From Methylobacterium durans (GTDB lineage Bacteria; Pseudomonadota; Alphaproteobacteria; Rhizobiales; Beijerinckiaceae): a stretch of 64,000 nt of DNA. The position numbers and the translations under genes were made by a program. The first letter of the stretch is position 1. Each line of letters begins with the position of its first letter. A model generated the notes under the pieces. The model did no database searches and was not told the origin of the DNA. It saw only the letters and a list, made by a program, of their open reading frames with translations. Location: contig NZ_CP029550.1 of the NCBI RefSeq assembly GCF_003173715.1, positions 3,121,001 to 3,185,000 of the forward strand, given 5' to 3'. Shown here one piece after another: positions 16,745-58,230 of the stretch.

Positions 16745-17985
16745 GGCTTCGTCCAGACCCATTGAGTGACCGGCATGGCCGCGCGCCAGCCGTGCATCCC
16801 GCCGACCGGGTCGGCGCGGGCGACCGAGAGGCGCCGCAGGGCGCCACCCCATTCGCCGAAGGCGGCGAGCAGCGCGGCCTCGCCTTCGAGGGTCACGGCG
16901 TTGGCCACGAGCCGTCCGCCCGGCGGCAGGGCGGCGGCCGCGCGGGTCAGCAAGCCCGGCTCCGAGACGCCGCCGCCGACGAAGATCGCGTCCGGCGCCG
17001 GCAACCCGTCGAGGGCGGTGGGCGCGGCCCCTTCCACCACCGCGAGGTCCGGCACGCCGAGCGCCTCCGCGTTGCGGCGGATGCGGGCGGCGCGATCGGG
17101 GCGGGTCTCGACGGCGATCGCCCGCATGGCGGGATGGCGCAGCATCCACTCGATAGCGACGGAGCCGGCGCCGCCGCCGATATCCCAGAGCCGTTCGCCG
17201 AGATGGGGCCGGAGCGCCGAGAGCGTCACGGCGCGGATCTCGGCCTTGGTGAGCTGCCCGTCATTCTCGAAGAGCGCATCGTCGAGGCCGGTCGCGAGCG
17301 GCAGCAGCCGGGCGTCCGGGCCCGCCACCACCTCGATCGCGAGGGTGTTGAGCGGGTCGATCCCCGCGAGGCCGAAGCCCTCGGCCGCGCCGCTGCGGAT
17401 CCGCTCGCGCCCGCCGCCCATCGCTTCCAGCACCGTCAGGCGCGAGGCGCCGAGCCCGCGCTCGGCCATCACGGCCGCGACGCGGCCCGGCGTCGTCTCG
17501 TCCCAGGACAGGACGAGGAGGCGCGCCCCCGGCTGGAGGTGGGGCAGGATGCGCGTCAGGGCGCGGCCGTGCAGCGTCAGGCAGGCGCATTCGGCGAGCG
17601 GCCAGCCGAGGCGGGCGCAGGCGAGGCTGAAGGCGGATGCTTGCGGAAACGCCCGGATTTCTTCCGGCGGCACGAGGCGCGCGATCTCGGCGCCGATGCC
17701 GAAATGGAACGGGTCGCCGGTGGCGAGGATGCAGGTCGGCTCGCCCCGCCGCGCCAGGATCGCGTCGTAGGCCCCCGCGAAGGGGCTCGGCCAGGTTTGC
17801 GCCTCGGCGGAGAGCGGAGCGGCAAGCGCCAGGTGGCGCCGGCCGCCATAGACCACGCGAGCCGAATCGAGGGCGGCGCTCGCGGCCGGAGAGAGCCCGG
17901 CACGGCCGTCCTCGCCGATCCCGACGATCGACAGCCACGGCTTTCGGCTCGACTCCGGCCCGGGCCTATCGGAGAAGGCTGCCAT
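16741..17985 (-). CDS. cobL: Precorrin-6Y C5,15-methyltransferase (decarboxylating) CobL
   Basis: 414 residues in two fused enzymes. The N-terminal CbiE-like methylase (PWLSIVGIGEDGRAGLSPAA, ILATGDPFHFGIGAEIA) and the C-terminal CbiT-like Rossmann methyltransferase (RLWDIGGGAGSVAIEWMLR, DAIFVGGGVSEPGLL) together methylate C5 and C15 and decarboxylate the C12 acetate. The ATG at 17985-17983 overlaps the cobK start codon on the opposite strand by two bases (CATG). A later start is unlikely because no usual codon precedes the conserved WLSIVGIG. Confidence 0.93.
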   Translation of the reverse strand: MAAFSDRPGPESSRKPWLSIVGIGEDGRAGLSPAASAALDSARVVYGGRRHLALAAPLSAEAQTWPSPFAGAYDAILARRGEPTCILATGDPFHFGIGAEIARLVPPEEIRAFPQASAFSLACARLGWPLAECACLTLHGRALTRILPHLQPGARLLVLSWDETTPGRVAAVMAERGLGASRLTVLEAMGGGRERIRSGAAEGFGLAGIDPLNTLAIEVVAGPDARLLPLATGLDDALFENDGQLTKAEIRAVTLSALRPHLGERLWDIGGGAGSVAIEWMLRHPAMRAIAVETRPDRAARIRRNAEALGVPDLAVVEGAAPTALDGLPAPDAIFVGGGVSEPGLLTRAAAALPPGGRLVANAVTLEGEAALLAAFGEWGGALRRLSVARADPVGGMHGWRAAMPVTQWVWTKP

Positions 17986-18718
17986 GCGCATCCTCATCCT
18001 CGGTGGCACCGGCGAGGCGAGCGCCCTGGTGCGGGGCCTCGCCGGATCCGGCCACGCGGTCACCCTGTCGCTCGCCGGCCGCACCGCCGCTCCGAAGCCG
18101 GAGCCGGTGCCAACCCGGACCGGCGGGTTCGGCGGCGCGGAGGGGCTCGCCCGCTACCTGACGGAGAACGCCGTCGACCGGCTCGTCGACGCGACCCACC
18201 CCTTCGCCGCGCGGATCTCCCGCAACGCCGCGGCGGCCGCGGCGCTGGCCGGGGTCCCCCTGCTCGCGATCCGGCGTCCGGCCTGGGAGCGGCAGGCGGC
18301 CGACGATTGGCGCGAGGTCGAGAGCGTGCTCGAGGCGGTGGCGGCCCTCGGCGAGGCGCCCCTGCGCGCCTTCCTCACGGTCGGTCGCCAGGAACTCGCC
18401 GCCTTCGCGGCGGCGCCCCAGCACGATTACGTGGTCCGCGCGATCGAGCCGGTGGTCGACATCCTGCCGGTGCCGCACCTGACGGCGATCGCCGCGCGCG
18501 GGCCCTTCGACGCATCCGCCGAGGCCGAATTCCTGCGCCGCTCCGGCATCGACGTGCTGGTGAGCAAGAATTCGGGCGGGGACGCCACCTACGGCAAGAT
18601 CGCCGCGGCGCGCGACCTCGGCATCCCGGTGGTGATGGTCCGCCGCCCGGACAAGCCCGACGTGCCGGCGGTGGCGGAGGCCGAGGCGGCGCTGACGGCG
18701 CTTCTCGGCGACGCGTGA
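17984..18718 (+). CDS. cobK: Precorrin-6A reductase CobK
   Basis: 244 residues. It reduces precorrin-6A to precorrin-6B with NADPH. The N-terminal MRILILGGTGEASALVRGLA is the nucleotide-binding motif, followed by DRLVDATHPFAARISRNAA and a C-terminal LVSKNSGGDATYGKI-AARDLGIPVVMV region typical of the family. The ATG overlaps the divergent cobL ATG, so there is no 5' untranslated leader between them beyond each other's coding sequence. Its 3' side faces cobJ across a palindromic repeat. Confidence 0.92.
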   Translation: MRILILGGTGEASALVRGLAGSGHAVTLSLAGRTAAPKPEPVPTRTGGFGGAEGLARYLTENAVDRLVDATHPFAARISRNAAAAAALAGVPLLAIRRPAWERQAADDWREVESVLEAVAALGEAPLRAFLTVGRQELAAFAAAPQHDYVVRAIEPVVDILPVPHLTAIAARGPFDASAEAEFLRRSGIDVLVSKNSGGDATYGKIAAARDLGIPVVMVRRPDKPDVPAVAEAEAALTALLGDA

Positions 18719-18727
18719 GGCGCGCCT

Positions 18728-18846
18728 CACCTCTCCCGCTCGGGAGAGGTCGAGTCCGCGGCACGCGGACCGGGTGAGGGGGGCGACCTCTCCGGAGGGA
18801 CCTGCATCCCTCACCCGAGCCCTCTCTCGAACGGGAGAGGGCGCGC
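18728..18846. repeat. Composite palindromic repeat between cobK and cobJ (copy 1)
   Basis: Architecture: outer palindrome ACCTCTCCCGCTCGGGAGAG (18729-18750 with two more bases), a central hairpin (GGGTGAGGG ... ACCTCTCCGGAGGGACCT ... CCCTCACCC), and a second outer palindrome CCTCTCTCGAACGGGAGAGG (18821-18840). The same order occurs at 24.29 and 55.90 kb inside genes. Here it fills the gap between two convergent genes and could act as a bidirectional terminator. Confidence 0.85.
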
Positions 18847-18870: not shown

Positions 18871-19635
18871 TCACCGCCCCGCCGGCACGCTGCGCGGCGT
18901 GTAGAGGAAAGGGCGCTCGCCCGGCCCACGGGGGATCAGGCGCGTGCCCGAGGCGCCGATGATCACGAGCGTCGCCATGTCGGCCGGCGCCTGCCGGGCC
19001 TCTTCCAGCGTCATCACGCGCAGCGCCTCGTCCGGCCGCGTCACCGCGCGGGCGAAGGCGACGGGCGTGGTGGCATCGCGGATCTCCAGGGCGAGGCCGA
19101 GCGCGGCGCCGAGCTGCCAGGGCCTCGCCGAAGAGATCGGGTTGTAGAGGGCGACGACGAGGTCGGCCCGCAGCACCGCTTCGAGGCGCGCGGTCACGAC
19201 CTCCCAGGGCTTCAGGTTGTCCGAGAGCGACAGGGCGCAGAAATCCCCGCCCATCGGCGCGCCGAGGCGGGCGGCGGCGGCGAGCATCGCCGTGATGCCG
19301 GGCTCGACCGTGATGGAGAGGCTCCGCCAGGCCGGGTCGCCGTGCTCGACCGCCTCGAACACGGCTGCCGCCATCGCGAAGACGCCGGGATCACCCCCCG
19401 ACACGATCGCGACGTGCCGCCCTTCCGAGGCCAGCGTCAGCGCGTGGCGGGCGCGGTCCACCTCGACGCGGTTGTCGCTCGGGTGGCGGGTCAGGCCCGG
19501 CCGCTCGGGCACGCGGGCGACGTAGGGGATGTAGCCGATCAGGTCCGTCGCCCGGTCCAGGGCGGCGGTGGCGGCAGGGGTGACGAGGCTCCGATCTCCG
19601 GGTCCGAGGCCGACGATCGCGACGCTGCCGCTCAC
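18871..19635 (-). CDS. cobJ: Precorrin-3B C17-methyltransferase CobJ
   Basis: 254 residues, tetrapyrrole methylase family. It methylates C17 of precorrin-3B and drives ring contraction to precorrin-4. Motifs: VAIVGLGPGDRSLVTP, ATDLIGYIPYVARV, HVAIVSGGDPGVFAMA, VEPGITAMLAAAARLGAP, LVVALYNPISSARPWQ. The GTG start at 19635 overlaps the cobI stop (GTGA). It is the last gene of the cbtB-to-cobJ run. Confidence 0.94.
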   Translation of the reverse strand: MSGSVAIVGLGPGDRSLVTPAATAALDRATDLIGYIPYVARVPERPGLTRHPSDNRVEVDRARHALTLASEGRHVAIVSGGDPGVFAMAAAVFEAVEHGDPAWRSLSITVEPGITAMLAAAARLGAPMGGDFCALSLSDNLKPWEVVTARLEAVLRADLVVALYNPISSARPWQLGAALGLALEIRDATTPVAFARAVTRPDEALRVMTLEEARQAPADMATLVIIGASGTRLIPRGPGERPFLYTPRSVPAGR

Positions 19636-20417
19636 GGCCGCCGGCCCTCGCCGGGAACGAGGACCATCGAGAAGTAGGGCGCCTCGTCGTCGGGCTTCCC
19701 CGCGAGGGGGATCACCTTCTCGCCCGCCATGGTGCCGCGCTCGACATAGACCGCCCGGTCGAGGAGGCCGGCCTCGGACAGGGCCGCGCGCACCTTCGGC
19801 AGGTGGCGGCCGAGCTTCATCACCACCGCCGCGTCGGTGCCGCGCAGGCGCTCGGCCAGCGCCGCGTGCGGCAGGGTCGCGGGCAGCACGGTGAGCACGT
19901 CGTCGCCCCAGGTGATCGGCGTGCCGGCTCGGGTCCAGCAGCCGGACATGCCAGTCACGCCCGGCACCACCTCGACGGGGAAGCGGTCCTTCAGGCGCCG
20001 CCACAGGTGCATGAAGGAGCCGTAGAAGAACGGGTCGCCCTCGGACAGGATCGCCACGTCGCGGCCTGCGCCAAGATGGTCGGCGAGCCGGGCGGCCGCG
20101 TCGTCGTAGAAGCCCGCCAGCGCCGAGACGTAGGTGGCGTCGTCGGGGGCGAGCTCCGTCGTGTAGGGGTAGACGAGGGGGAATTCGCGGGCCGGATCGC
20201 GCAGCACCGCGTCCGCGATGGTGCGGGCGTTGCCGCGGCGGCCCTTCTTGCAGAAATGGACGAGGATGGGCGCCCTCTCCAGCACGCGCACGGCGCGCAC
20301 CGTCAGGTAGTCCGGGTCGCCCGGACCCATGCCGACGCCGAAGAGGGTGCCGGTCGTCACCACGGCCGGCGCCTCGGGGGCGGGCTCGTCGGCGAACAGG
20401 CTCTCGCGCGCGTCCAT
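19632..20417 (-). CDS. cobI: Precorrin-2 C20-methyltransferase CobI
   Basis: 261 residues, tetrapyrrole methylase family. It adds a methyl to C20 of precorrin-2. After a 20-residue Ala/Pro/Glu-rich leader come GTLFGVGMGPGDPDYLTVRA, ILVHFCKKGRRGNART, VAILSEGDPFFYGSFMHL and VEVVPGVTGMSGC. ATG 20417 overlaps the cobH stop as TGATG, so translation is coupled on both sides. Confidence 0.94.
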   Translation of the reverse strand: MDARESLFADEPAPEAPAVVTTGTLFGVGMGPGDPDYLTVRAVRVLERAPILVHFCKKGRRGNARTIADAVLRDPAREFPLVYPYTTELAPDDATYVSALAGFYDDAAARLADHLGAGRDVAILSEGDPFFYGSFMHLWRRLKDRFPVEVVPGVTGMSGCWTRAGTPITWGDDVLTVLPATLPHAALAERLRGTDAAVVMKLGRHLPKVRAALSEAGLLDRAVYVERGTMAGEKVIPLAGKPDDEAPYFSMVLVPGEGRRP

Positions 20418-21049: not shown

Positions 21050-21103
21050 CGGTCGAAACTCATCGGTCGGAATTTATGGGTCGGACTTTATGGGTCGGGT
21101 GTC
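21048..21103. repeat. Degenerate short tandem repeat at the cobG-cobH junction
   Basis: Four near copies of a unit of about 15-16 bases, read as CATCGGTCGAAACT, CATCGGTCGGAATTT, ATGGGTCGGACTTT and ATGGGTCGGGTG, run through the cobG-cobH junction. The array spans the cobH start, the spacer and the last codons of cobG. It may have grown by slippage and slightly separated two genes that are otherwise tightly packed. Confidence 0.6.
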
Positions 21104-22417
21104 GAAGGCGCGGTGGAGGGTTTCTGTGGAATCCGCCCTCCTTACGCGTTCGAGCGCCGCCTCGAAAGTCAGTTGCGTCGCCGGCTCATCGCCGGGGCCG
21201 CCGTCGAGGACGACGCCGTAGCGGCCGTCATGCCCGGCGAGGGTGAGGTCCGCGGGGGCGGGTCGGGCGCAGCCCTTGGCGCAGCCGGAGACATGGGCGG
21301 TAAGTCCCCGCGCCGCGAAGGGCTGGAAAGCCTCCGCGAGCCGGGCGGCGTCGACCTGCGTCGGCGTCGAGCCGGAGGCGCAGGCCGGTGCGCCGGGGCA
21401 GGCGGCGACCGCCCGGCGCGGATCCTCGGGCGCGACGACGAAGCCGGCGGCGGCAAGGTCCGCCAGGGCAGATTCGGCGGAGGCGGGGGCGGTGGCGGGG
21501 AGCACGAAGCCGCGGGTTGAGGACAGGCGGATCTCGGTGGCGCCGAGGGTTGCGGCGATCCGCGTGAGCGCGTCGAGGGCGTCCGCATCGCAGCGGCCGA
21601 AGGGCGCCTCGACGGCGAGGATGGTGAGAGAAGGGGACAGGACGTGAAGGCCCGCCGGGGGCGGCATTCCGCGCTGCCCGGCCCAGGCACCGTTCGGCGC
21701 GACGGACCCCCTCTCCCGTTCGGGAGAGGTGAGGCGCGCCGCGGCGCGGGTGAGGGCGTGGCGCTCGTCCTGGCCGAGGTCGCGCACCCTGCGTCGGCCC
21801 GTTCGGGCGAAGGCGTCGAGGAGAGCCGCGACCGTCCCGGCCACCTCCGCCTCGGCGACCTCGCCGATCCGATCCGGCCCGTCCTCGGCCGCGAGGGCCA
21901 GTGCGACGCGGCCGGCTTCGGCCGCCCGCAGGACGATGTCGGCCTCGGCCTCCCCCGGCCCGAAGCAGCCGCCGCCGTACAGGCTCACCAGGGTCTTGGC
22001 CGGCACGCCGGGGATCGCGAGCCCCGCCGCCTCGACGGCGCGCGCCAGCGCCGGCACGTCGATGCGCTCCGCCGGGTCGAGGCCGGCGAGCGGGCTCGCC
22101 AGCGTCAGCCGCTGCGGACCGCCGTCGTGGCGCGCGTCGCCGAGGCCGGCGGCGTCGAGGAAGGCCGCGAGGGGGCCGCGGGTCTCCTCCGTCACGCCGC
22201 GGACCTGGAGGTTCGCGCGGGCCGTCACGTCGATATGGCCGTTGCCGAAGCGGCGGGCGGCCTCGGCGAGGTCTTTCGCCTGCGCGAGGCTCAGGACACC
22301 GCTCGCCGGGTGGATGCGGGCGAGGAGGCCGTCCCCGGTCGGCATCGGCCGGGCGAGGCCGGGGCACCAGCCGCGGCGGGAGGGGAGGGCGGGGAGGACG
22401 CGCCGGGCAACGCTCAT
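21074..22417 (-). CDS. cobG: Precorrin-3B synthase CobG
   Basis: 447 residues related to nitrite/sulfite reductases. It is an oxygen-dependent FeS enzyme that hydroxylates C20 of precorrin-3A, marking the aerobic pathway. Ligand cysteines are visible as CPGAPACASGSTPTQ and VSGCAKGCARP. Between about residues 229 and 262 the protein carries a low-homology stretch beginning LTSPERERGS that is encoded by half of the palindromic repeat. The start overlaps the cobN end by four bases. Confidence 0.9.
   Translation of the reverse strand: MSVARRVLPALPSRRGWCPGLARPMPTGDGLLARIHPASGVLSLAQAKDLAEAARRFGNGHIDVTARANLQVRGVTEETRGPLAAFLDAAGLGDARHDGGPQRLTLASPLAGLDPAERIDVPALARAVEAAGLAIPGVPAKTLVSLYGGGCFGPGEAEADIVLRAAEAGRVALALAAEDGPDRIGEVAEAEVAGTVAALLDAFARTGRRRVRDLGQDERHALTRAAARLTSPERERGSVAPNGAWAGQRGMPPPAGLHVLSPSLTILAVEAPFGRCDADALDALTRIAATLGATEIRLSSTRGFVLPATAPASAESALADLAAAGFVVAPEDPRRAVAACPGAPACASGSTPTQVDAARLAEAFQPFAARGLTAHVSGCAKGCARPAPADLTLAGHDGRYGVVLDGGPGDEPATQLTFEAALERVRRADSTETLHRAFDTRPIKSDP
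21706..21757. repeat. Half copy of the composite palindromic repeat inside cobG (copy 2)
   Basis: CCTCTCCCGTTCGGGAGAGG at 21710-21729 is followed by GTGAGGCGCGCCGCGGCGCG and GGTGAGGGCG. It matches the left outer arm and start of the central arm of the full repeat. It lies in frame within cobG and encodes a segment containing SPERERG. Confidence 0.75.
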
Positions 22418-25400
22418 TCGGCGGCCTCCGGCCTCAGCGCGTCGGGCGGCATCGCGTTACGGCGGCTCACCCAGAGCCCGCGGCGGCGCGCCTCCTCGAA
22501 CCGCTCCAGGATCGCCCGCGTCGCCGCGGGGTTTGCCGCCGCGATCCGCTCGAAGGTCTCGGGGTCGGCGATCCAGGCGCCGTAGAGATGGTCGAGGTCG
22601 CCGCCGCGCACCGCGTCGGTCGTGGCCGCGAGCACGAACAGGGCGTCGATCCCCTGCGCCAGTTCCTGCACGCCCCGGTAGCCGTGGCGGAGCTGGGCGG
22701 CGATCCAGCGCGGATTGGCGAGGCGCCCGCGGATCAGGCGGGCCACGTCCTCGCGGGCGGTGCGGGCCTTGGGCGCCTCGGGGTCGGCGACGTCGAGGCT
22801 GTAGAGGGCGGGCCGCGCGCCGGACGCCTCGGCGGCGGCCGCGAAGCCGCCCATCGCGTCCGCGCCCGCGTCCCCGTCGAGGAGGTCGCGCTCGGCGACG
22901 TCGAAGGCGTGGACGTAGGCGTCGGCCCGCGCCACGCGCTCGGCGAAGCTCGCATCCGCGCCCTCCGCGTCGCCGTAGGCGTGCGAGGACGCCGCGAGGT
23001 AGGCGGCGGCGAGATCGGCCCGGGTCTCCCAGGCGTCTTCGAGGGCGGTGCCGGCCGCGCCGGCCCCGTAGCGGCCGGGGGCCGCCCCGAAGACGCGGGA
23101 AGGCGCCTCGCCGCGGCGGCGGGCGGCCGCGAGCGGGTTCTCCGCATCCTCTTCCTCGTCGCGGGCGGCCACCGCGCGGGCGGCGCGGTCGAGGAGCGCC
23201 AGCGTCTCGGGAAAGGTGTCGCGGAAGGCGCCGGAGACGCGCAGCGTCACGTCGATGCGCGGCCGGTCGAGCAGGGCGAGCGGCAGCACCTCGAAGCCGG
23301 TGACGCGGGTGGTGGCGTTGTCCCAGACCGGGCGGACGCCCATCAGCGCCAGGGCGTGGGCGACGTCCTCGCCGCCGGTGCGCAGGGTCGGCGAGGCCCA
23401 GAGGTCCATGACGATGCGGGCCGGGTACTCGCCTTCGTCCTGCAGGTAGCGGCGCACCACGGCCTCGGCCGCCCTGGCGCCGAGGGTCGCGGCGGCCCGG
23501 GTGGGCAGGGCGCGGGGGTCGAGGGTGGTGAGGTTGCGCCCCGTCGGCAGCACGTCGGTGCGGCCGCGCGCTGGCGAGCCGGCGGGGCCCGGCGGTACGA
23601 AGCGGCTGTCGAGGGCGGCCAGAAGACCGTCCCGCTCGGCGTCCGCACAGGCGCGGCGCGCCGGATCGGCGTCGGCGGGCGCGCGGCCGAAGACGTGGAA
23701 CCCGTCGCGGAAGGCGGTCTCGGCGAGGTCGCAGAGATGTGCGTCGAGGGCGGTGAGCGCGTCCTCCATCGGCGCGTTGGCCGCGATCCCGGCCCCTCAA
23801 GGAGGCCCGCCGCCGCGGCGTCGTCCAGGATCGCCCGCGCGATGAGGGCGGCGCGGCGGGGATCGAGGACGCTGGCCGAGGAATATTCCTCCACGAGCTC
23901 GCGCAGGCGCGCCGCCTCGGGCGAGAGCTCCGCCCGCTCCACGCGCGGTGTCAGGTGGCCGAGGGCGATGCCGCCGAGGCGCCGCTTCAGCGGCGCGGCC
24001 TCGCCCGGATCGTCCACGATGAACGGGTAGATCACGGGCAGCGCGCCGATTGCGAGCGCCGGCCAGCACGTGGGCGAGAGCGCGACGGCCTTGCCGGGCA
24101 GCCACTCGGTGGTGCCGTGCGTGCCGAGATGGATCAGCGCGTCGAAGCGGGCTCGCAGGCCGAGATGGAAGGCGAGGTAGGCGTGGGTCGGCGGCGCGTC
24201 GGGGTCGTGATAGCCGGCCTTGCGGTCCTCGCCCCGGCCGCGATCCGGCTGGAGGAAGATCGCGAGGGTGCCGGCCGCCCGGCGCGACGCGCCCCCTCTC
24301 CCATCCGGGAGAGGGTCGGGGTGAGGGGGACAGGTCTCTCCGGATAGGTCGCACTCCTCACCCGGTCCGCGTCCCGCGCACTCGACCGCTCCCGAACGGG
24401 AGAGGGGACCGGAGATCGACCGGAAGCGGAAGGCGTCGTCTGTCAGCGCGGGGTCGCTCTCCGGCGGCCCCCAGTGGGCGTTCAGGACGTCGCGCGCCTC
24501 TGCCGGCAGGGTCGCGAGCCACGCCCGGTAATCGTCGAGCGGCACCGCGAACCCGACGTCGCCCTCGGTCAGGGCCCGCATCAGGGCGTCCCCCTCCGGC
24601 ATCGGGCCCAGGGCGTAGCCGGCCTCCGCCAGATCCGCCGCGATGGCGCGGGCGCTCGCCTCCGTATCGAGGCCCACCGCGAAGCCCGCCCGGCCGCCGC
24701 GGGCGGGATAGTCCGAGAGCACCATCGCGAGACGCCGCGCGTGGCGCGGCGTTCGCGCGAGGCGGATCCAGGCCGCGGCCCGGTCGGCCAAGGCCGCGAT
24801 GCCCTCCGGATCGGGGATCGCGCGGCGCTCGGCGTAGCCCTCGACCTCGGGCGATTCCTCCTTGAACGAGATCGGAAAGCCGGAGAGCCGCCCGTCGAAT
24901 TCGGGCAGAGCCACCTGCATGGCGAGGTCGGCCGCGTTCAGGCCGCGCGCCGAGGCGGCCCACGCGGCGCGGGGGCTGCCGACCGTGACGGCCTGGAGGA
25001 CCGGGCAATCGGCCGCATCGAGCGGGAAGGCCGCGTCCTCCCGCGCCGAGAAGGCAGTGGCCGCCACCACGATGTCGGGGCGGCGGGCGGCGACGAGCGC
25101 CCGCAGCGGCTCCAGGGCCGCCGGATCCTTGAGGCTCGACACAGCGACGATGGCGCTTCCGATGCCCCGCATCCGGAGCGCTGCCGTGAACGCCGCGACC
25201 GGGGCCGTGTCGCCGCCGAGCACGGCGGAGCGGTAGACGAGGACGAGCGCCAGCGGCGCCCCGGCCGCGGCGAGGGCCGTCTCGACGGAGACCGGACCGC
25301 AGCCGGGGCACCACGCGAAGCCCCGCGGCAACGGCTCCGGCGGCTCGACCGCGACGGGCTCGCCGATCTCGGCCGCGAGCCGCCCGAGCATCCGGCGCAG

Positions 25401-25844
25401 GTTCTGCGGACCGCCCGCCCGGAAATAGGCGTCGAGCTCGGCCGCGAGGCCCGGCACCGTGGAGTAGGAATCGAGGCGCGGGTCCGGCCGGTCGTCGCCG
25501 GGCAGCACCGCGAGCTTGACCCCGTGGGCACGGGCCGCCGCGTGGGCCCGCTCCACGCCGTAGCGCCAGTAATCGAGGCCGCCGAGGCAGCGGATCACCA
25601 CGATCCTGGCGCGGGCGATCACGCCGTCGACGTAGAGATCCACCGACATCGGGTGCCGCAGGCGCGCGAGCTTGGCGAGCCGCAGCGAGGGCAGGCCGGG
25701 CTCGCCCGCCGCGTGGGCGGCCGCGACGCCCGCGAGGTCGGAATCGGTGAAGGAGAGGAAGACGATGTCGCCCGGCGCCTGCCCGAGATCGACCGCCGCC
25801 TCGCCCTCGTCGAGGGAGACCGTATCGATGCGGACGAGGTGCAT
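22414..25844 (-). pseudogene. cobN: Cobaltochelatase subunit CobN, frameshifted as read
   Basis: CobN is the large subunit of the ATP-dependent aerobic cobaltochelatase that inserts Co2+ into hydrogenobyrinic acid a,c-diamide with CobS and CobT (not in this window). The frame from 25844 runs through typical sequence (MHLVRIDTVSLDEGEAAVDL, IVVIRCLGGLDYWRYGVE, DALIHLGTHGTTEWLPGK) to LLEG and then loses homology. The adjacent frame resumes with GIAANAP-MEDALTALDAHLC and continues to 22414. One extra G in the run at 23793-23796 would give a continuous protein of about 1,143 residues. A palindromic repeat inserts about 40 residues near 24.35 kb. Given similar single-base defects elsewhere, the gene is probably intact in the organism. 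Confidence 0.85.
24293..24408. repeat. Composite palindromic repeat inside cobN (copy 3)
   Basis: The outer palindrome CCTCTCCCATCCGGGAGAGG (24295-24314), the central arm (GGGTGAGGGGGACAGGTCT ... AGGTCGCACTCCTCACCC) and the second outer arm CTCCCGAACGGGAGAGGGG (24389-24407) repeat the order seen in copies 1 and 4. It is read through in frame on the minus strand, giving a peptide that includes GEECDLSGE, inserted between DAFRFRS and GTLAIFLQPDRGRGEDRK. Confidence 0.85.
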
Positions 25845-52148: not shown

Positions 52149-55100
52149 TCAGTGGAAATCCCGGCTGCGGTAGACCCGGCGGTCGAGGGGCGCGCCGAAA
52201 TCGTTGGTTTCGGGCGGCAGCCGCATCCCACCCTCGCGCAGGAGCCGCAGCTCCTCCGTGAGGTCGCGGAAGCGCTCGGCGATCACGTGCACCACCTTGT
52301 GCTCGCCCGAGCCCTCCCGCTGCACGCGGCCGCGCACGGCGAGGAAGCGGGCGGTCATCGCCGCGCGCCGGTTCGCCTCGAAGACCTTTCGCCAGACGAT
52401 CACGTTGGCGATGCCGGTCTCGTCCTCGAGCGTGAGGAAGACCACGCCCTTGGCCGTGCCTGGCCGCTGGCGTGTGAGGACAAGGCCCGCCACCGTGACC
52501 CGGCTGTTTAAGGGCAGCGCCTCGTCGAGATGGTCGCGGGCGGGGATCGCGCCGATCCGGGCGAGCCGCTCGCGGAAGAAGGCGATCGGGTGGCCCTTCA
52601 GCGAGAGGCCCGTCGCCGCGTAATCCTCCGCCACCTGCTCGCTCGGGGCGAGGGCGGGCAGCGCCACGGACGGCTCGTGCCGGAACAGGCCGTCATCGGC
52701 GTGGAAGGCGAAGAGGGGGAGCGGCGTCTCGAGGAGATGGGCCCGCCGGTCCGGCCCCGCCTCGGCCGCGGCCTTCGCGGCCCGGCGGGCGGCGGTGCCT
52801 TCCAGCGTGCGCACCATCCAGAGGGCGGCGCGCCGGTCGAGGTCGAGGGAGCGGAAGGCGTCGGCCTCGGCGAGCCGCTCCAGGGCGTTGCGGGGCAGCG
52901 CGAGGGCTGCCTGCAGGCCCTCGATGCTGGCGTAGCCGTTGCCGCGCGCCGCCACCAGCCGGCGCATCGCTGCCTCGGGCAGGCCGCTCACCTGCCGCAA
53001 GCCGATGCGCACGGCGAGCCGGCGCGGCCCGCCGGGGGGCGGCGGCTCGGAGGCCGGCTCCAAGGTGCAGTCCCAGTCGCTCGCGTTCACGTCCGGGCCC
53101 CGCACCTCGACGCCGTGGGCGCGGGCATCGCGCACGAGCTGGGCCGGCTGGTAGAAGCCCATCGGCTGCGCGTTGAGGATCGCGGCCAGGAAGACGTCCG
53201 GGTGGCGGCACTTCATCCAGGCCGATGCGTAGACGAGGAGGGCGAAGCTCGCCGCGTGGCTCTCGGGGAAGCCGTAGGTGGAGAAGCCCCGGATCTGCGC
53301 GAAGCAGCGCTCGGCGAAGTCCCGCGGGTAGCCGCGGCCCGTCATGCCGCCCACGAACTTCTCCTCGAAGGCGCCGATCGTGCCGACGTGCCGGAAGGTC
53401 GCCATGGCCCGGCGCAGGCCGTCGGCTTCCGCCGGGGTGAAGCCCGCCGCCGTGATGGCGATCTGCATGGCGTGCTCTTGGAAGAGTGGCACGCCGTAGG
53501 TCTTGTGCAGGACCGCGTGCAACTCGTCCGCCGGCCCGTGGGCCGGGTGGGGGGCAGGGTAGGTGACGGGCTCGGTCCCGGCGCGGCGACGCAGGTAGGG
53601 GTGAACCATGTCCCCCTGGATCGGGCCGGGCCGCACGATCGCGACCTGCACCACGAGATCGTAGAATTCCCTGGGCTTCAGGCGCGGCAGCATCGACATC
53701 TGCGCCCGGCTCTCGACCTGGAACACGCCGACGGAATCGGCCCGCGACAGCATGGTGTAGACGCTCCCGTCCTCCTGCGGCAGGTCGGCGAGCGTCGGGT
53801 AGGCGTGGCCGTAATCCCGCTCCAGGAAGGCGAGGCCGCGCTTCAGGCAGGAGAGCATGCCGAGCGCCAGCACGTCGACCTTCATCAGGTCGAGCACGTC
53901 GATGTCGTCCTTGTCCCACTCGATGAAGGTGCGATCGGGCATGGCGGCGTTGCAGACCGGCACCGTCTCGTCGAGGCGCCCGCGGGTCAGCACGAAGCCG
54001 CCGACGTGCTGCGAGAGGTGGCGGGGGAAGCCGATCAGCGCGACCGCGAGGTCGACCGCCCGCCGGATCGCGGGGTTCCCCGGGTCGAGCCCGGCCTCCG
54101 CGACGTGGCTGTCCGGCAGGTCCTTGCCCCAGGAGCCCCAGACCGTCTCGGAGAGGGCGGCGGTGATGTCCTCGGTCAGCCCCAGCACCTTGCCGACCTC
54201 GCGGATCGCCGAGCGCGGCCGGTAGTGGATCACCGTGGAGCAGATCGCGGCGCGCTCGCGGCCATACTTGCCGTAGAGGTACTGGATCACCTCCTCGCGG
54301 CGCTCGTGCTCGAAATCGACGTCGATGTCGGGGGGCTCGTCCCGGTTCTCGGAGATGAAGCGGGCGAACAGCAGCCGGTGCTTGGCCGGATCGACCGCGG
54401 TGATGCCGAGGCAGTAGCAGACGGCGGAATTCGCCGCCGAGCCGCGTCCCTGGCAGAGGATGCCCCGGTCGCGGGCGAATTCCACGAGGTCGAACAGGGT
54501 GAGGAAGTAGCGGGCATAGCCCATCGTCGCGATGAGGCGCAGTTCCTCCCGCAAGGTCGCCTCGACGGTCTCCGGGACGCCCTCGGGGAAGCGCCAGAGC
54601 GCTCGCTCGAAGGTCTTCTCCTCCAGGTAGCCTTGCGCCGTCCGGCCCGGCGGCACCGGCTCGTCGGGGTATTCGTAGGTCAGCTGGCCGAGGGAGAAAT
54701 CGCAGGCCTCCACGATCTCGAGTGTGCGCGCCAGCGCCTGCGGATGGTCGGCGAAGAGCCGGGCCATCTCGGGCCCCGGCTTCAGGTGGCGCTCGGCGTT
54801 GGCCTCCAGCCGGTAGCCGGCCTCGGTGATCCGGCAGCCCTCGCGGATGCAGGTCACCACGTCCTGGAGCGGGCGCCGTTCCGGATGGTGGTAGAGCGCG
54901 TCCGAGACCGCGACGAGGGGCGCGCCGAGCCGTTCGCCGAGTTCGGCCAGGAGCCCGAGACGGGCCCGCTCGTCGCCGCGCCGGGCATGAGCGCCGCCGA
55001 GATAGGTCCGGCCGGGCGCCGCGGCGGCGAGCGCCTCAAGATGGGCGGCGAAGCCCTTGCCCGGCGTGAGGCGCCGCCCGGGCGGCATCGCGATGAAGAT

Positions 55101-55496
55101 CTGGCCCTCGGCCGCCTCCAGCATCTCGGTGAAACCGAACCGGCATTCGCCCTTGCGCGCGCGCCGGTTGCCGGCCGAGAGTAGCCGGCAGAGCCGGCCG
55201 TAGGCCGCCCGGTCCATCGGGTAGGTGATCGCCTCGAAGCCCTCCTCGCTGACGAGGCGGACCCCCGGCAGGAAGCGGATCTTCCACCGCTCCGGCTCGT
55301 CCGGGTCCCGCGGTGTCGCGGGCTTCACCCGGGCGGTCGCATGGGCCCGCACCAGCCCCGACACCGTGTTGCGGTCGGCGATGCCGATGGCCGCGAGCCC
55401 GTAGGCCATCGCCTGCTCCACGTATTCCTGCGGGTGCGAGGCGCCGCGCAGGAAAGAGAAGTTCGTGGAAACGGCGAGTTCAGCGTAGGCGCTCAC
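52149..55496 (-). CDS. dnaE2: Error-prone DNA polymerase DnaE2 (ImuC)
   Basis: 1,115 residues of the C-family polymerase. PHP domain: [20 protein letters not shown]; palm acids in [19 protein letters not shown] and [20 protein letters not shown]; HhH and OB regions near the C-terminus ([20 protein letters not shown]). The short, tau-interaction-free tail is typical of DnaE2 rather than DnaE1. It carries out damage-induced mutagenic synthesis with ImuA and ImuB. The GTG start at 55496 overlaps the imuB stop (GTGA), so it is translated with imuB. Confidence 0.95.
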
Positions 55497-57241
55497 GCGA
55501 ACAGCCCGTGCACGAACCAGCCCGCCGGCTCGCCGGGGGCGTGGGCGCCGTCCCGGTAGAGCCAGAACCGGCGCCCGGATTCGCACTCGACCACGTAGTA
55601 GTCGCGCGTCCTGTCCGGGCCGGTCTTGCCGGGACTCCGCCACCATTCGGGCGCGATCCGCTCCGGCCCCTCCGCGTGGGCGACCCGGTGCAACCGCCGC
55701 CGCCAGCGGAACCGCTCCGGCGGTCCTTCCGGCGCCAGCGCGATCACCTCCTCGGCCGCTTCGCTGCGCTCGAACAGGACGAGGGGGCGCGGGCGCAGGC
55801 CCTCCTCCGGGCCGGGCCAGTGCAGGATGACGCGGGTAACGGGCTCGGGATCCCCATGCCCGCCCGAGCGCGGTGGAAGGATGGATCGGACGGCGCGCCG
55901 CGCCCCCTCTCCCGTTCGGGAGAGGGTCGGGGTGAGGGGTGCGACCTCTCCGGAAAGGTCGCACCCCTCACCCGGTGCGCTGGCGCGCACGCGCCCTCTC
56001 CCGAACGGGAGAGGTGTCCCGCGTGCCATCACCCCTCCCCAGGGCACCAGTACGTCCGCCCGCTCCGGGAGGTGGCTCTCGCGCGCCTCCAGGCGGATCA
56101 CCCGGCGGCCGAGGCGCTGGCCGAGGGCGTCGGCGAGGCGGGCGAGTGCGGTGGTCTCCGGCTCGGCGAGACGCGCGAGAGCACCTTGTCGGGCCGGCAT
56201 CGCGCCCGTGCCCGTCACGTCGAGGCGCACGGTCTCGAAGCCGAAGCCCGCGTCGAGCTCGGGCCCGAGCCGCTCAAGGCGCAGGCGCAGCAGGCGGCCG
56301 ACATGCTCCGGGCAGCGGGTCGGCTCGGCGAGGCCGAGATCGAGACGGCGCACGGCATCGTCGACCCGGTGCAGGCTGAGGCGCAGGGCGCAGGCCCCGA
56401 GCCCGTCCGCCGCGAGACGCGGCGCGATCTCCCCCATCAGCCGCTGCGCGGTCACGACGATCGTCTCCTGCCGGCCGATCGGTTCGAGGAAGCCGCGGGC
56501 CGCGCCGTAGCTGACCGCCTCGCCGAGGGGGGCGAGGGGCTCGGGGCGCAAGCCCAGCGCCTGGTCGAGCCGGGTGATCAGCGCCTCCCCGAAGCGGCGG
56601 GCGAGCGGCGCGCGGGCCGCGTCCGCCAGGGCCCCGATCCGGCGCAGGCCGAGGCGCTTCAGCGCCGCCACCGTCTCCGGTTCGAGCCGCAGCGCCTCGA
56701 CGGGCAGCGCCCGCAGGGAAACGGCATTCGCCCCCGGCGCCACGACGGTGCCGTCCCGCCCGTGGCGGGCCAGCGCGAAGGCGGCGCCGGGCGTGTCGGC
56801 GAGCGCGAGGCGGGCAGGAATCCCGTGGGCGGCGAGGCGGCCGGCGATGTCGGCCATCAGCCCCGCCTCGCCGCCGAGGAGGTGGCTCGCCCCCGCCACG
56901 TCGAGGAACAGGCCCTCGCCCCCCTCCGCCGCCCCGAAGGCAGCGACGAGGGGCGTGTAGCGCTGTGCCCAGAGGCAGAGCCGGACGAGGGCGGCGGCGT
57001 CGGCCTCCGGATCGGCCGGGTGGACCTTGAGCGGCGTGCCGATCCGGGCCTGCACGCGGCCGAGCGGCTCGCCTGGGCGCAGGCCGAGCGCGTGGGCGCG
57101 GGCATCGACCGCCGTCAGGCGCAGGCCCCCGGATCCCAGGGCTGCGACGGCCATTGGCAGCCCGTCGTCAGGCTCCCGCAAGGCGCGCCGCAGGCGGGTG
57201 ACCGGCCAGTGCGTCAGGCAGACCGAAACGATGCGCGGCAT
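55493..57241 (-). CDS. imuB: Y-family polymerase-like protein ImuB, with palindromic repeat insertion
   Basis: 582 residues. The fold follows Y-family polymerases ([40 protein letters not shown]), but the catalytic acidic motif at the N-terminus is missing, as in all ImuB proteins. ImuB acts as a scaffold linking the beta clamp, ImuA and DnaE2. Residues of about 418-460 ([10 protein letters not shown] to TGEGARRA) are encoded by the palindromic repeat and are probably an exposed, unstructured insert before the C-terminal domain. The first 74 bases overlap imuA. Confidence 0.92.
55903..56014. repeat. Composite palindromic repeat inside imuB (copy 4, best preserved)
   Basis: Outer palindrome CCTCTCCCGTTCGGGAGAGG (55906-55925), a central hairpin with an 18-bp perfect stem GGGTGAGGGGTGCGACCT (55930-55947) / AGGTCGCACCCCTCACCC (55956-55973) and loop CTCCGGAA, and a second outer palindrome CCTCTCCCGAACGGGAGAGG (55995-56014). 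It is read in frame by imuB. Confidence 0.9.
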
Positions 57242-57980
57242 GATCCCACTCCAACAGCCACGTGCCCGGCCGCCCGTTGCGGCAGCGGTCGAGATGCGCC
57301 CGCCAGCGCGGGCCGGCGAGGCAGCCGAAGCGGTCCCGGGCCGCCCCGCCCGCGGCGATCCGCCAACGGGTCGCCGCGCCGTTCGGCGCCTCGGCGCGGG
57401 CCGGGCGCAGGATCAGGAGGAGGGGCCCCGCGGCCTCGGCGGCGAGTTGCAGGCGCCGCCCCTGCTTCAGGGACAGGCCGTCCCCGACGAACCCGGCGAG
57501 CGCCGGCAGGCTGCCCGCCCGCAGAGCCTCCTCCAAGGCGAGGTAGACCTCCGCGTCGCTGCCCGCCTCCAGGAGGAGGACGCGGCCCGGATCGAGCCCG
57601 AGCCCGGCGAGCCCGTGCCCGTAGGGCGTCGGATGGCCGGGGGCGACGACGAGGAGGGCTTCGCCCGCTGCCCGGTCGAGGCGGCGGGCGAGAAGGGCGA
57701 GGCCGAAGCCGAGGGCGCAGGGCTCGTCGCCCTCGGCCATCGGGGCGATCTCGTGGGCGCGGCCGAGGCGCAGGCCCCCGCCGGGAAGATGCGCGTCGAC
57801 CGGTCCCACGCCGAAGGGCAGGACGGCGGAGCCGTGCCGATCCGGCTCCGATCCGGCCGTCGCGATCCCGCGCAGGGCCGCGCGGGCCGCGGCGTGGCGG
57901 GTGGCTCTGTCGGGCGGCTCGGCCTCCGGAGCGCCGTCGGCGCGCGCGTCTCCGTCCGGTTCCTCATGCGACCGCTCCAT
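57168..57980 (-). CDS. imuA: ImuA, RecA/SulA-like mutasome subunit
   Basis: 270 residues from ATG 57980. The core is RecA-like but degenerate: LPFGVGPVDAHLPGGGLRLG, HEIAPMAEGDEPCALGFGL, LLVVAPGHPTPYGHGLAGLG and PLLLILRPARAEAPNGAATR. ImuA activates the ImuB-DnaE2 polymerase during SOS-induced mutagenesis. The open frame extends upstream to 58181, but the SOS box at 58014-58028 and the family length favour 57980. It overlaps imuB by 74 bases. Confidence 0.9.
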   Translation of the reverse strand: MERSHEEPDGDARADGAPEAEPPDRATRHAAARAALRGIATAGSEPDRHGSAVLPFGVGPVDAHLPGGGLRLGRAHEIAPMAEGDEPCALGFGLALLARRLDRAAGEALLVVAPGHPTPYGHGLAGLGLDPGRVLLLEAGSDAEVYLALEEALRAGSLPALAGFVGDGLSLKQGRRLQLAAEAAGPLLLILRPARAEAPNGAATRWRIAAGGAARDRFGCLAGPRWRAHLDRCRNGRPGTWLLEWDHAAHRFGLPDALAGHPPAARLAGA

Positions 57981-58013
57981 CCTGCACCGGCTCCGACTGT
58001 GCGGCCACGATAA

Positions 58014-58028
58014 GAACAAAACAGGAAC
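58014..58028 (-). promoter_or_regulatory. LexA (SOS) box upstream of imuA-imuB-dnaE2
   Basis: GAACAAAACAGGAAC on the plus strand reads GTTCCTGTTTTGTTC on the coding strand, an exact alphaproteobacterial GTTC-N7-GTTC LexA site. It lies 33 bases upstream of the imuA start, consistent with SOS control of the mutasome. Confidence 0.9.
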
Positions 58029-58085
58029 AATCTCAACCGGTTTCCGACGCCTCACGATTTTCCGTGCACCCCCATGGCTTTGGCC

Positions 58086-58111
58086 TGTGGAGAGGTGTGG
58101 ACGGCTGTGGA
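58086..58111. promoter_or_regulatory. Three TGTGGA repeats at 10-bp spacing upstream of the collagen-like gene
   Basis: TGTGGA begins at 58086, 58096 and 58106. The third copy extends to TGTGGATTA, one base from the DnaA-box complement TGTGGATAA. The exact 10-bp phasing would place proteins on one face of the helix. It sits between the SOS box and the collagen-like gene. Confidence 0.4.
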
Positions 58112-58230
58112 TTAGCGGGGACTCGGGATGCGGCCGGAGGCCCCGGAGACAGGGTTGACCCCGCCGCTCGGGGGGCGGCAATGTCCCCCGCCCGCCCGAA
58201 CGGGGTGCGGATCACTCGGGGGGAACGTCC

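Follow-up and report, generated by a model that had tools for sequence, protein, structure and literature searches.

In the BIME/REPIN and MITE classes of repeats, inverted outer units surround a centre, copy numbers are high and the units fold into hairpins. Palindromic repeats have also been reported within protein-coding genes. As far as the available text of the sources goes, Rickettsia palindromic elements (RPEs) are palindromic repeats of 100-150 bp that occur in intergenic DNA as well as, in frame, inside conserved genes, different groups lie near each other in orthologues, and insertion hotspots have been considered (PMC2229807, PMC10969869, PMC3767692). According to the accessible part of PMC10969869, nearly half of the first reported RPEs lay in ORFs. 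The GTAG/CGTC REPs, as described in the available portion of PMC3733652, are found in frame inside genes, many of them for replication and repair and including those for DnaE2 and DNA ligase, and recB carries different REPs at about the same site in two Xanthomonas species. The TM_ECO/BoxC motif of E. coli, 37 nt long, is given as always intergenic in the accessible sections of PMC4666352, which also describe inverted motif pairs. For Methylobacterium, the available part of a 2009 account of two genomes (PMC2680597) reports one MITE of about 400 bp and mentions no repeat like the one described here.

We analyzed a stretch of 64,000 nucleotides (the window) from the Methylobacterium durans genome (assembly GCF_003173715.1, contig NZ_CP029550.1, positions 3,121,001 to 3,185,000 of the forward strand). 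Window positions 55901-56017, inside the gene imuB, represent one copy of a composite palindrome that is about 110 bp long and dispersed in the genome, referred to here as the EL family. The original prediction had placed a composite palindrome in frame in imuB, with two outer 20-bp palindromes and an 18-bp central stem, and this was borne out at the same place; the order of outer units and centre was also correct, and a fourth part, the side hairpin, had been missed. The features of the locus, with genes in the M. durans genome called by our own codon score rather than taken from annotation, are as follows.

55493..57241, - strand: imuB, 582 aa, with the element at residues 409-447
57168..58181, - strand: imuA-like gene adjoining imuB (NF033429, 60 bits, under the curated cut-off of 150)
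52149..55500, - strand: dnaE2 (error-prone DNA polymerase), directly downstream of imuB; upper border approximate
55901..56017, + strand: whole composite element (model positions 3-119 of 122, 112.8 bits, E 8.1e-33, with an nhmmer family profile built from 43 genomic EL copies, the imuB copy among them)
55905..55938, + strand: exact match to the TM_ECO/BoxC intrastrand-triplex motif, consensus CCCTCNCCC-N3-6-GGGNGAGGG-N3-GGGNGAGGG
55906..55925, + strand: left outer palindrome CCTCTCCCGTTCGGGAGAGG
55930..55973, + strand: central hairpin with an 18-bp perfect stem, 55930-55947 pairing with 55956-55973 (inverted-repeat search and fold)
55975..55990, + strand: side hairpin GTGCGC-TGGC-GCGCAC, 6 bp, between the centre and the right outer unit
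55995..56014, + strand: right outer palindrome CCTCTCCCGAACGGGAGAGG

The imuB reading frame passes through the element without a stop, so the insert would be translated as extra linker, probably a flexible or disordered peptide. It encodes 39 residues, fewer than the roughly 42 predicted, in a linker that lies ahead of the C-terminal domain, as had been foreseen; the DUF6504 match covers ImuB residues 499-577, past the insert. The N-terminal part of ImuB gave weak matches to DNA polymerase IV, below their cut-offs, and the ORF at 52149-55964 matched PRK05672 (dnaE2) from residue 157 onward with 1359 bits. An ImuB-type protein match was obtained in 107 of the 111 genus genomes, a count in which imuB is not separated from more distant relatives.

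Each outer unit is 20 bp long, with a 9-bp stem and a 2-nt loop, and the left unit is the reverse complement of the right. The inverted arms of the copy (28 nt, 89% complementary), which amount to terminal inverted repeats, are paired in the predicted fold. The 117-nt segment, as single-stranded DNA, folds at -62.6 kcal/mol compared to a shuffled mean of -27 (z -13.8; 0 of 200 shuffles equal), in a predicted structure of one long outer stem bearing the central and side hairpins. The transcript strand of the element gave -103 kcal/mol (z -13) on folding. By its match to the consensus, the TM_ECO/BoxC part is a candidate for an intrastrand triplex.

Clear covariation amongst 58 distinct copies is confined to the side hairpin, where C-G is exchanged for G-C at two of the six pairs, with both sides changed in 16 and 14 copies. 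These double changes fit preservation of the fold and hairpin-templated correction alike. Compensation in the central hairpin was also considered and is unsupported, with six inner pairs unpaired in 10 to 32 of the 58 copies. Over the whole structure, pairs changed on both sides were fewer than in shuffles (5 vs 8.2) and the covariation score was higher (0.087 vs 0.074). The central arms were observed to be of two types, TGCGACC or TACAGGT on the left with their complements on the right (alignment columns 41-68), in mixed combinations, and many EL copies are consequently mosaics with a poorly paired centre. A search of Rfam returned ten hits at E up to 1, all under the gathering score (the best, to a microRNA family, at 30 of 60 bits), which were treated as chance matches to hairpins.

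The M. durans genome is a single contig of 6,788,375 bp, in which the outer palindrome was found at 187 sites with at most one mismatch, compared to 0 and 2 on the two strands for a reversed-pattern control; it is therefore far from a single occurrence. A sample of about 1.1 Mb of the 6.79-Mb genome, picked partly around known copies and not by coding status, and containing 1000 N and a few overlapping pieces, yielded 77 near-full EL profile matches, which include a few weak or overlapping ones (e.g., 2259614 and 3110149). With a pattern that differed slightly, the same sample gave 136 palindrome sites, and 122 of these belong to copies that match the profile at more than 70 positions. One whole 620-kb stretch held 21 near-full EL matches, 59 EL copies were alignable, and BLAST with the imuB copy gave at least 85 matches, both strands counted, from the 40 of 198 candidates that were scored. 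Exact TM_ECO/BoxC matches numbered 48 genome-wide and 0 in a reversed control; 40 of these matches fell in the 1.1-Mb sample, all within near-full EL copies, which corresponds to about half of the 77. Additionally, 11 of 60 sampled genomes of the bacterial family had an exact TM_ECO/BoxC match, and at least 67 of the 111 genus genomes had an EL BLAST match at E 1e-8 with eight candidates scored per genome. EL had no match in phage records and was present in 4 of 72,556 plasmid records (3 from Methylobacterium and 1 from Azospirillum).

The location of EL copies relative to genes was evaluated with 150 bp on each side of a copy and codon statistics from 176 long ORFs of the M. durans genome. 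Of the 77 EL copies, 3 lay in a frame without stops and had coding-like sequence on either side, compared to 1838 of 3957 random sites (46%; binomial p 7e-17). This test misses genes with a weak codon signal, given that no more than 46% of random sites passed although most of the genome should be coding, and the 3 of 77 is therefore a minimum. The hosts of the three passing copies are imuB, an ATP-dependent DNA ligase and cobN, and all three read the same strand of EL, with GPGEECDLSGE as one reading of the centre. Copies at 18.73 and 24.29 kb of the window, which the original prediction had listed, were confirmed by profile match and alignment as EL members with the same order of parts. Besides imuB, the 24.29-kb copy and the ligase and cobG sites listed here lie inside genes.

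18726..18845, - strand: intergenic full EL copy between a precorrin-6A reductase gene (17984-18718, + strand) and a cobJ-like gene (18871-20004, - strand)
21710..21729, + strand: solo outer palindrome in frame in cobG (21074-22417, - strand), peptide LTSPERERGS
24289..24408, + strand: full copy in frame inside the N-terminal cobN ORF (23343-25844, - strand)
G000:C1:1949862-1949977 (M. durans genome): copy in a 617-aa cisplatin-damage-response ATP-dependent DNA ligase (TIGR04120, 844 bits)

The solo palindrome in cobG was the only one of 14 other palindrome sites to pass the coding test. Copy lengths are spread evenly modulo 3 (25, 27 and 25 copies per class, n=77), indicating that EL is not built to keep the frame. 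Frames through EL are often open in this GC-rich genome: within the 77 copies, 268 of 462 were, compared to 218 (sd 11) in shuffles, an excess that could reflect mild selection for openness or merely palindromic composition. The cobN gene (window 22414-25844, - strand) is split by a frameshift near 23,800, with PRK12321 positions 1-646 matched by the N-terminal ORF and 653-1097 by the following one; the split may be an assembly error, a pseudogene or a real frameshift. It makes cobN a weaker example of a working gene that tolerates the insertion.

Comparison with related species revealed that the imuB insertion is lineage-specific. It is common to this strain and M. segetis (L021/L022), whose ImuB proteins are 93% identical, and no EL match was found in the imuB linkers of M. 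planeticum (L030) or M. soli (L023). The linker measures 86 residues with the insert, and 33 in M. planeticum and 66 in M. soli. An EL match was present in 5 of 36 distinct imuB linkers, so most of the ImuB orthologues examined do not share the segment, and only the M. segetis one is plainly the same insertion. Aligning imuB, as had been proposed for defining the insertion borders, thus established the lineage-specific presence and placed the border only roughly, since relatives without the insert are too diverged. M. oxalidis has an EL copy in the same imuB linker, at a contig end, and more distant species carry a different palindrome family there. Most simply, EL would have entered the linker in the ancestor that this strain shares with M. 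segetis.

Between these two, the insert differs at 14 of 117 nt, with equal length and a frame open in both. The pN/pS ratio was 0.41 for the insert, 0.18 for the ImuB core and 0.48 for the C-terminal part, on small counts (7 and 7 changes). The insert thus changes faster than the core at the amino-acid level, as weak constraint would predict; the inserted peptide may still be under some constraint, 0.41 being below 1 and near the C-terminal value. In M. segetis, besides the full imuB on contig 97, residues 473-582 recur at 95% identity at the end of contig 57 (L107), either as a duplicate or as an assembly overlap. In M. oxalidis, both imuB (L060, L106) and the ligase gene (L202, L203) are cut by contig ends within the repeat, suggesting that draft genomes will hide or break such genes.

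The linkers of the three host genes were compared across the genus for three families, tested by profile or by single sequences: EL, P2 (172 bp) and P3 (104 bp, related to EL). The loci comprised 36 for imuB (89, minus 37 outside the anchors and 16 duplicates), 47 of 50 for the ligase and all 30 for cobN. At 20 bits or more, EL, P2 or P3 matched 12 of 36 imuB linkers, 25 of 47 ligase linkers and 9 of 30 cobN linkers (46 of 113 in total), compared to 0 of 113 flanking coding stretches upstream and 0 of 113 downstream (Fisher p 6e-26), these stretches being up to 900 bp and shorter where the locus ended. The remaining 67 linkers were short, or long without a match to the three families. A check independent of family gave the same direction, with an inverted repeat of at least 12 (one mismatch allowed) in 56 of the 90 linkers that are at least 60 nt long, and in 15 of 360 length-matched pieces of the same genes. 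The parsed linkers are in frame despite widely varying length, an open frame having been a condition of the parsing.

P2 and P3 are themselves dispersed, with at least 61, 80 and 81 matches for P2 and at least 48, 88 and 90 for P3 in three genomes each (up to 40 candidates scored per genome, both strands counted). In the M. durans genome, P2 had no match in the same search, again with up to 40 candidates scored, and the P3 query gave at least 47 weaker matches (best E 4.9e-18) because P3 is related to EL; the EL profile also matches P3 linkers. None of 21 P3 copies in genome G052 passed the coding test, for which the codon scores were trained on the M. durans genome. Several of the P3 copies in that genome (L250-L269) have common left and right flanks outside the 104-bp unit, e.g. 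cggcattcacacatctcgcggg and ccggtgcgcctcccgcccgc, which suggests that the unit is a larger mosaic.

By parsimony on FastTree trees built from the conserved parts, the minimum number of changes in linker class was 13 for imuB, 21 for the ligase and 7 for cobN, and 7, 11 and 2, respectively, when only short and long linkers were distinguished; these are minima on single-gene trees with some weakly supported nodes. By eye, further repeat-like peptides were observed in the cobN linkers L225, L230, L231, L234, L235, L228 and L237 (e.g., PHPEVAERSGALEGG...APQDEVGG and SLRAQRSNPGDVSASE...), which may be other translated palindrome families. A long linker with a palindrome-like peptide, GPLSRKERGPVAGPLP, was likewise seen by eye in the ImuB of a Beijerinckiaceae genome bin (L062), and the phenomenon may therefore extend outside Methylobacterium.

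Full and solo forms were found at the same sites, as called by eye and from partial profile matches below 20 bits. In the ligase gene, L170 is full and L200 solo, and L185 is full and L180 solo; in imuB, L026 is full and L049 solo; and in cobN, L243 is full and L241 and L242 are solo. Within genes, the two forms differ by 72-90 nt, which are whole codons. The intergenic 18.73-kb copy is full in this strain (G000) and in M. segetis (G046), a solo palindrome in G032, and an apparent remnant in G034 and G047. These pairs are most simply read as loss of the segment that separates the near-identical outer palindromes, and gain also fits. When the 18.73-kb copy (18726-18845) was set beside its M. 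segetis counterpart (L270:1106-1310), the centre seemed flipped and the arm types exchanged between flanks about 91% identical, which suggests inversion at the inner arms.

Mobility driven by a RAYT transposase is unsupported, as a whole-genome search with PF01797 (Y1_Tnp) gave 0 matches at E 0.001; with this model, matches were obtained in 5 of 14 control genomes. Among 70 EL and 21 P3 copies, whose ends are fuzzy, no k-mer pair was conspicuous as a target-site duplication, no GTAG/CGTC terminal tag was seen by eye in the 59-copy EL consensus, and no autonomous partner of EL was identified.

Altogether, these observations are best accounted for by a non-autonomous, selfish structured repeat of the BIME/MITE type, founded on the TM_ECO/BoxC motif and tolerated in flexible linkers, a reading to which we assign a probability of roughly 0.8. 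EL copies landing in genes would probably be lost in most cases and persist where a linker tolerates added residues, so that the same linkers in imuB, the ligase and cobN would be filled repeatedly by the abundant palindrome family of each lineage. At any one site, copies would turn over between full and solo forms. Spread by way of folded single strands during replication or repair is a guess. A bolder extension, which we regard as unlikely, is that the three linkers are true landing pads, refilled by the active palindrome family of each lineage, where in-frame full/solo switching shifts the length by 24-30 residues at once. Selfish hairpins would then continually supply the mutagenesis and repair machinery with variation in linker length, and their spread through repair synthesis itself could explain an over-representation of repair genes.

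Several other explanations were weighed against the tolerated-repeat reading. The insert could be a functional protein feature, such as a selected linker length or a mutasome contact site, that is palindrome-encoded by chance. Despite the 14 nucleotide differences, this strain and M. segetis both have an open frame and the same insert length, which agrees with such a role, as does the pN/pS of the insert, and the parsed linkers remain in frame as their length varies, an open frame having been required; staying in frame, however, is needed for any insertion in a working gene. Moreover, orthologues do without the insert or have other families or frames in its place, the outer palindrome reads LPFGRG, LSRxGE or PSPVRER depending on the host, and 74 of the 77 EL copies failed the coding test, all of which makes a functional protein feature improbable. 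We are similarly doubtful that the element serves as a regulatory RNA or DNA element of the imuA-imuB-dnaE2 message (i.e., an RNase target or an attenuator) whose translation is incidental. The strong fold of the transcript strand, the dnaE2 match that starts directly past imuB and the compensatory side-hairpin pairs among copies would suit such a role, and the available text of PMC2229807 reports that palindromic repeats can affect neighbouring mRNAs, but the element is not conserved in the imuB of relatives, EL also lies beside unrelated genes such as the cobalamin cluster, and no Rfam family reached its gathering score.

A chance palindrome or an assembly artefact is considered refuted because the insertion is shared with M. 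segetis, which was assembled separately. Palindromic repeats do break assemblies, as the M. oxalidis imuB and ligase genes that end at contig ends inside the repeat illustrate; the M. durans genome, however, is a single contig, the fold of the element stands at z -13.8 and 59 copies can be aligned.

The element brings coding palindromic repeats to a GC-rich genus for which many species have been sequenced. The filled, solo and empty states of one linker can be compared side by side there, so that the long-standing question of tolerated junk versus protein raw material becomes testable. The host genes, namely the imuB-dnaE2 mutasome and the damage-response ligase, have simple phenotypes. Additionally, BoxC/TM, a widespread motif with an unexplained spread, is placed inside genes, where its movement leaves a readable record.

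With regard to known systems, and within the available text of the sources cited, the kinship that can be recognized by sequence is with TM_ECO/BoxC (PMC4666352), whose consensus the left part of EL fits exactly. In EL, unlike in E. coli, the motif belongs to a 110-bp composite that also has a central hairpin and a side hairpin, and three EL copies lie inside genes, the other 74 having failed the coding test, whereas the E. coli motif is intergenic. EL resembles RPEs (PMC2229807, PMC10969869, PMC3767692) as a many-copy palindromic repeat of RPE-type length in frame within conserved genes (imuB, ligase, cobN), and it differs in its Methylobacterium host and in that at least 3 of 77 copies, rather than nearly half, are in genes. 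The comparison with Rickettsia palindromic elements made in the original prediction therefore holds as an analogy, by features and not by sequence. Like the GTAG/CGTC REPs (PMC3733652), EL is in frame inside repair genes; unlike these REPs, with their unit of 20-40 bp, it is a 110-bp composite in which no tag was seen and for which no Y1 transposase domain was found. With the BIME/REPIN and MITE classes, EL shares inverted outer units around a centre, many copies, some of them in tandem, and hairpin folding, and it differs in that no Y1 transposase, target-site duplication or autonomous partner was found. The open-licence literature, judged by titles and the starts of abstracts, yielded no description of the EL family. 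Palindromes inside repair genes were thus already known, and it is the EL family itself and the recurrent replacement at the same linkers by several families that appear to be new.
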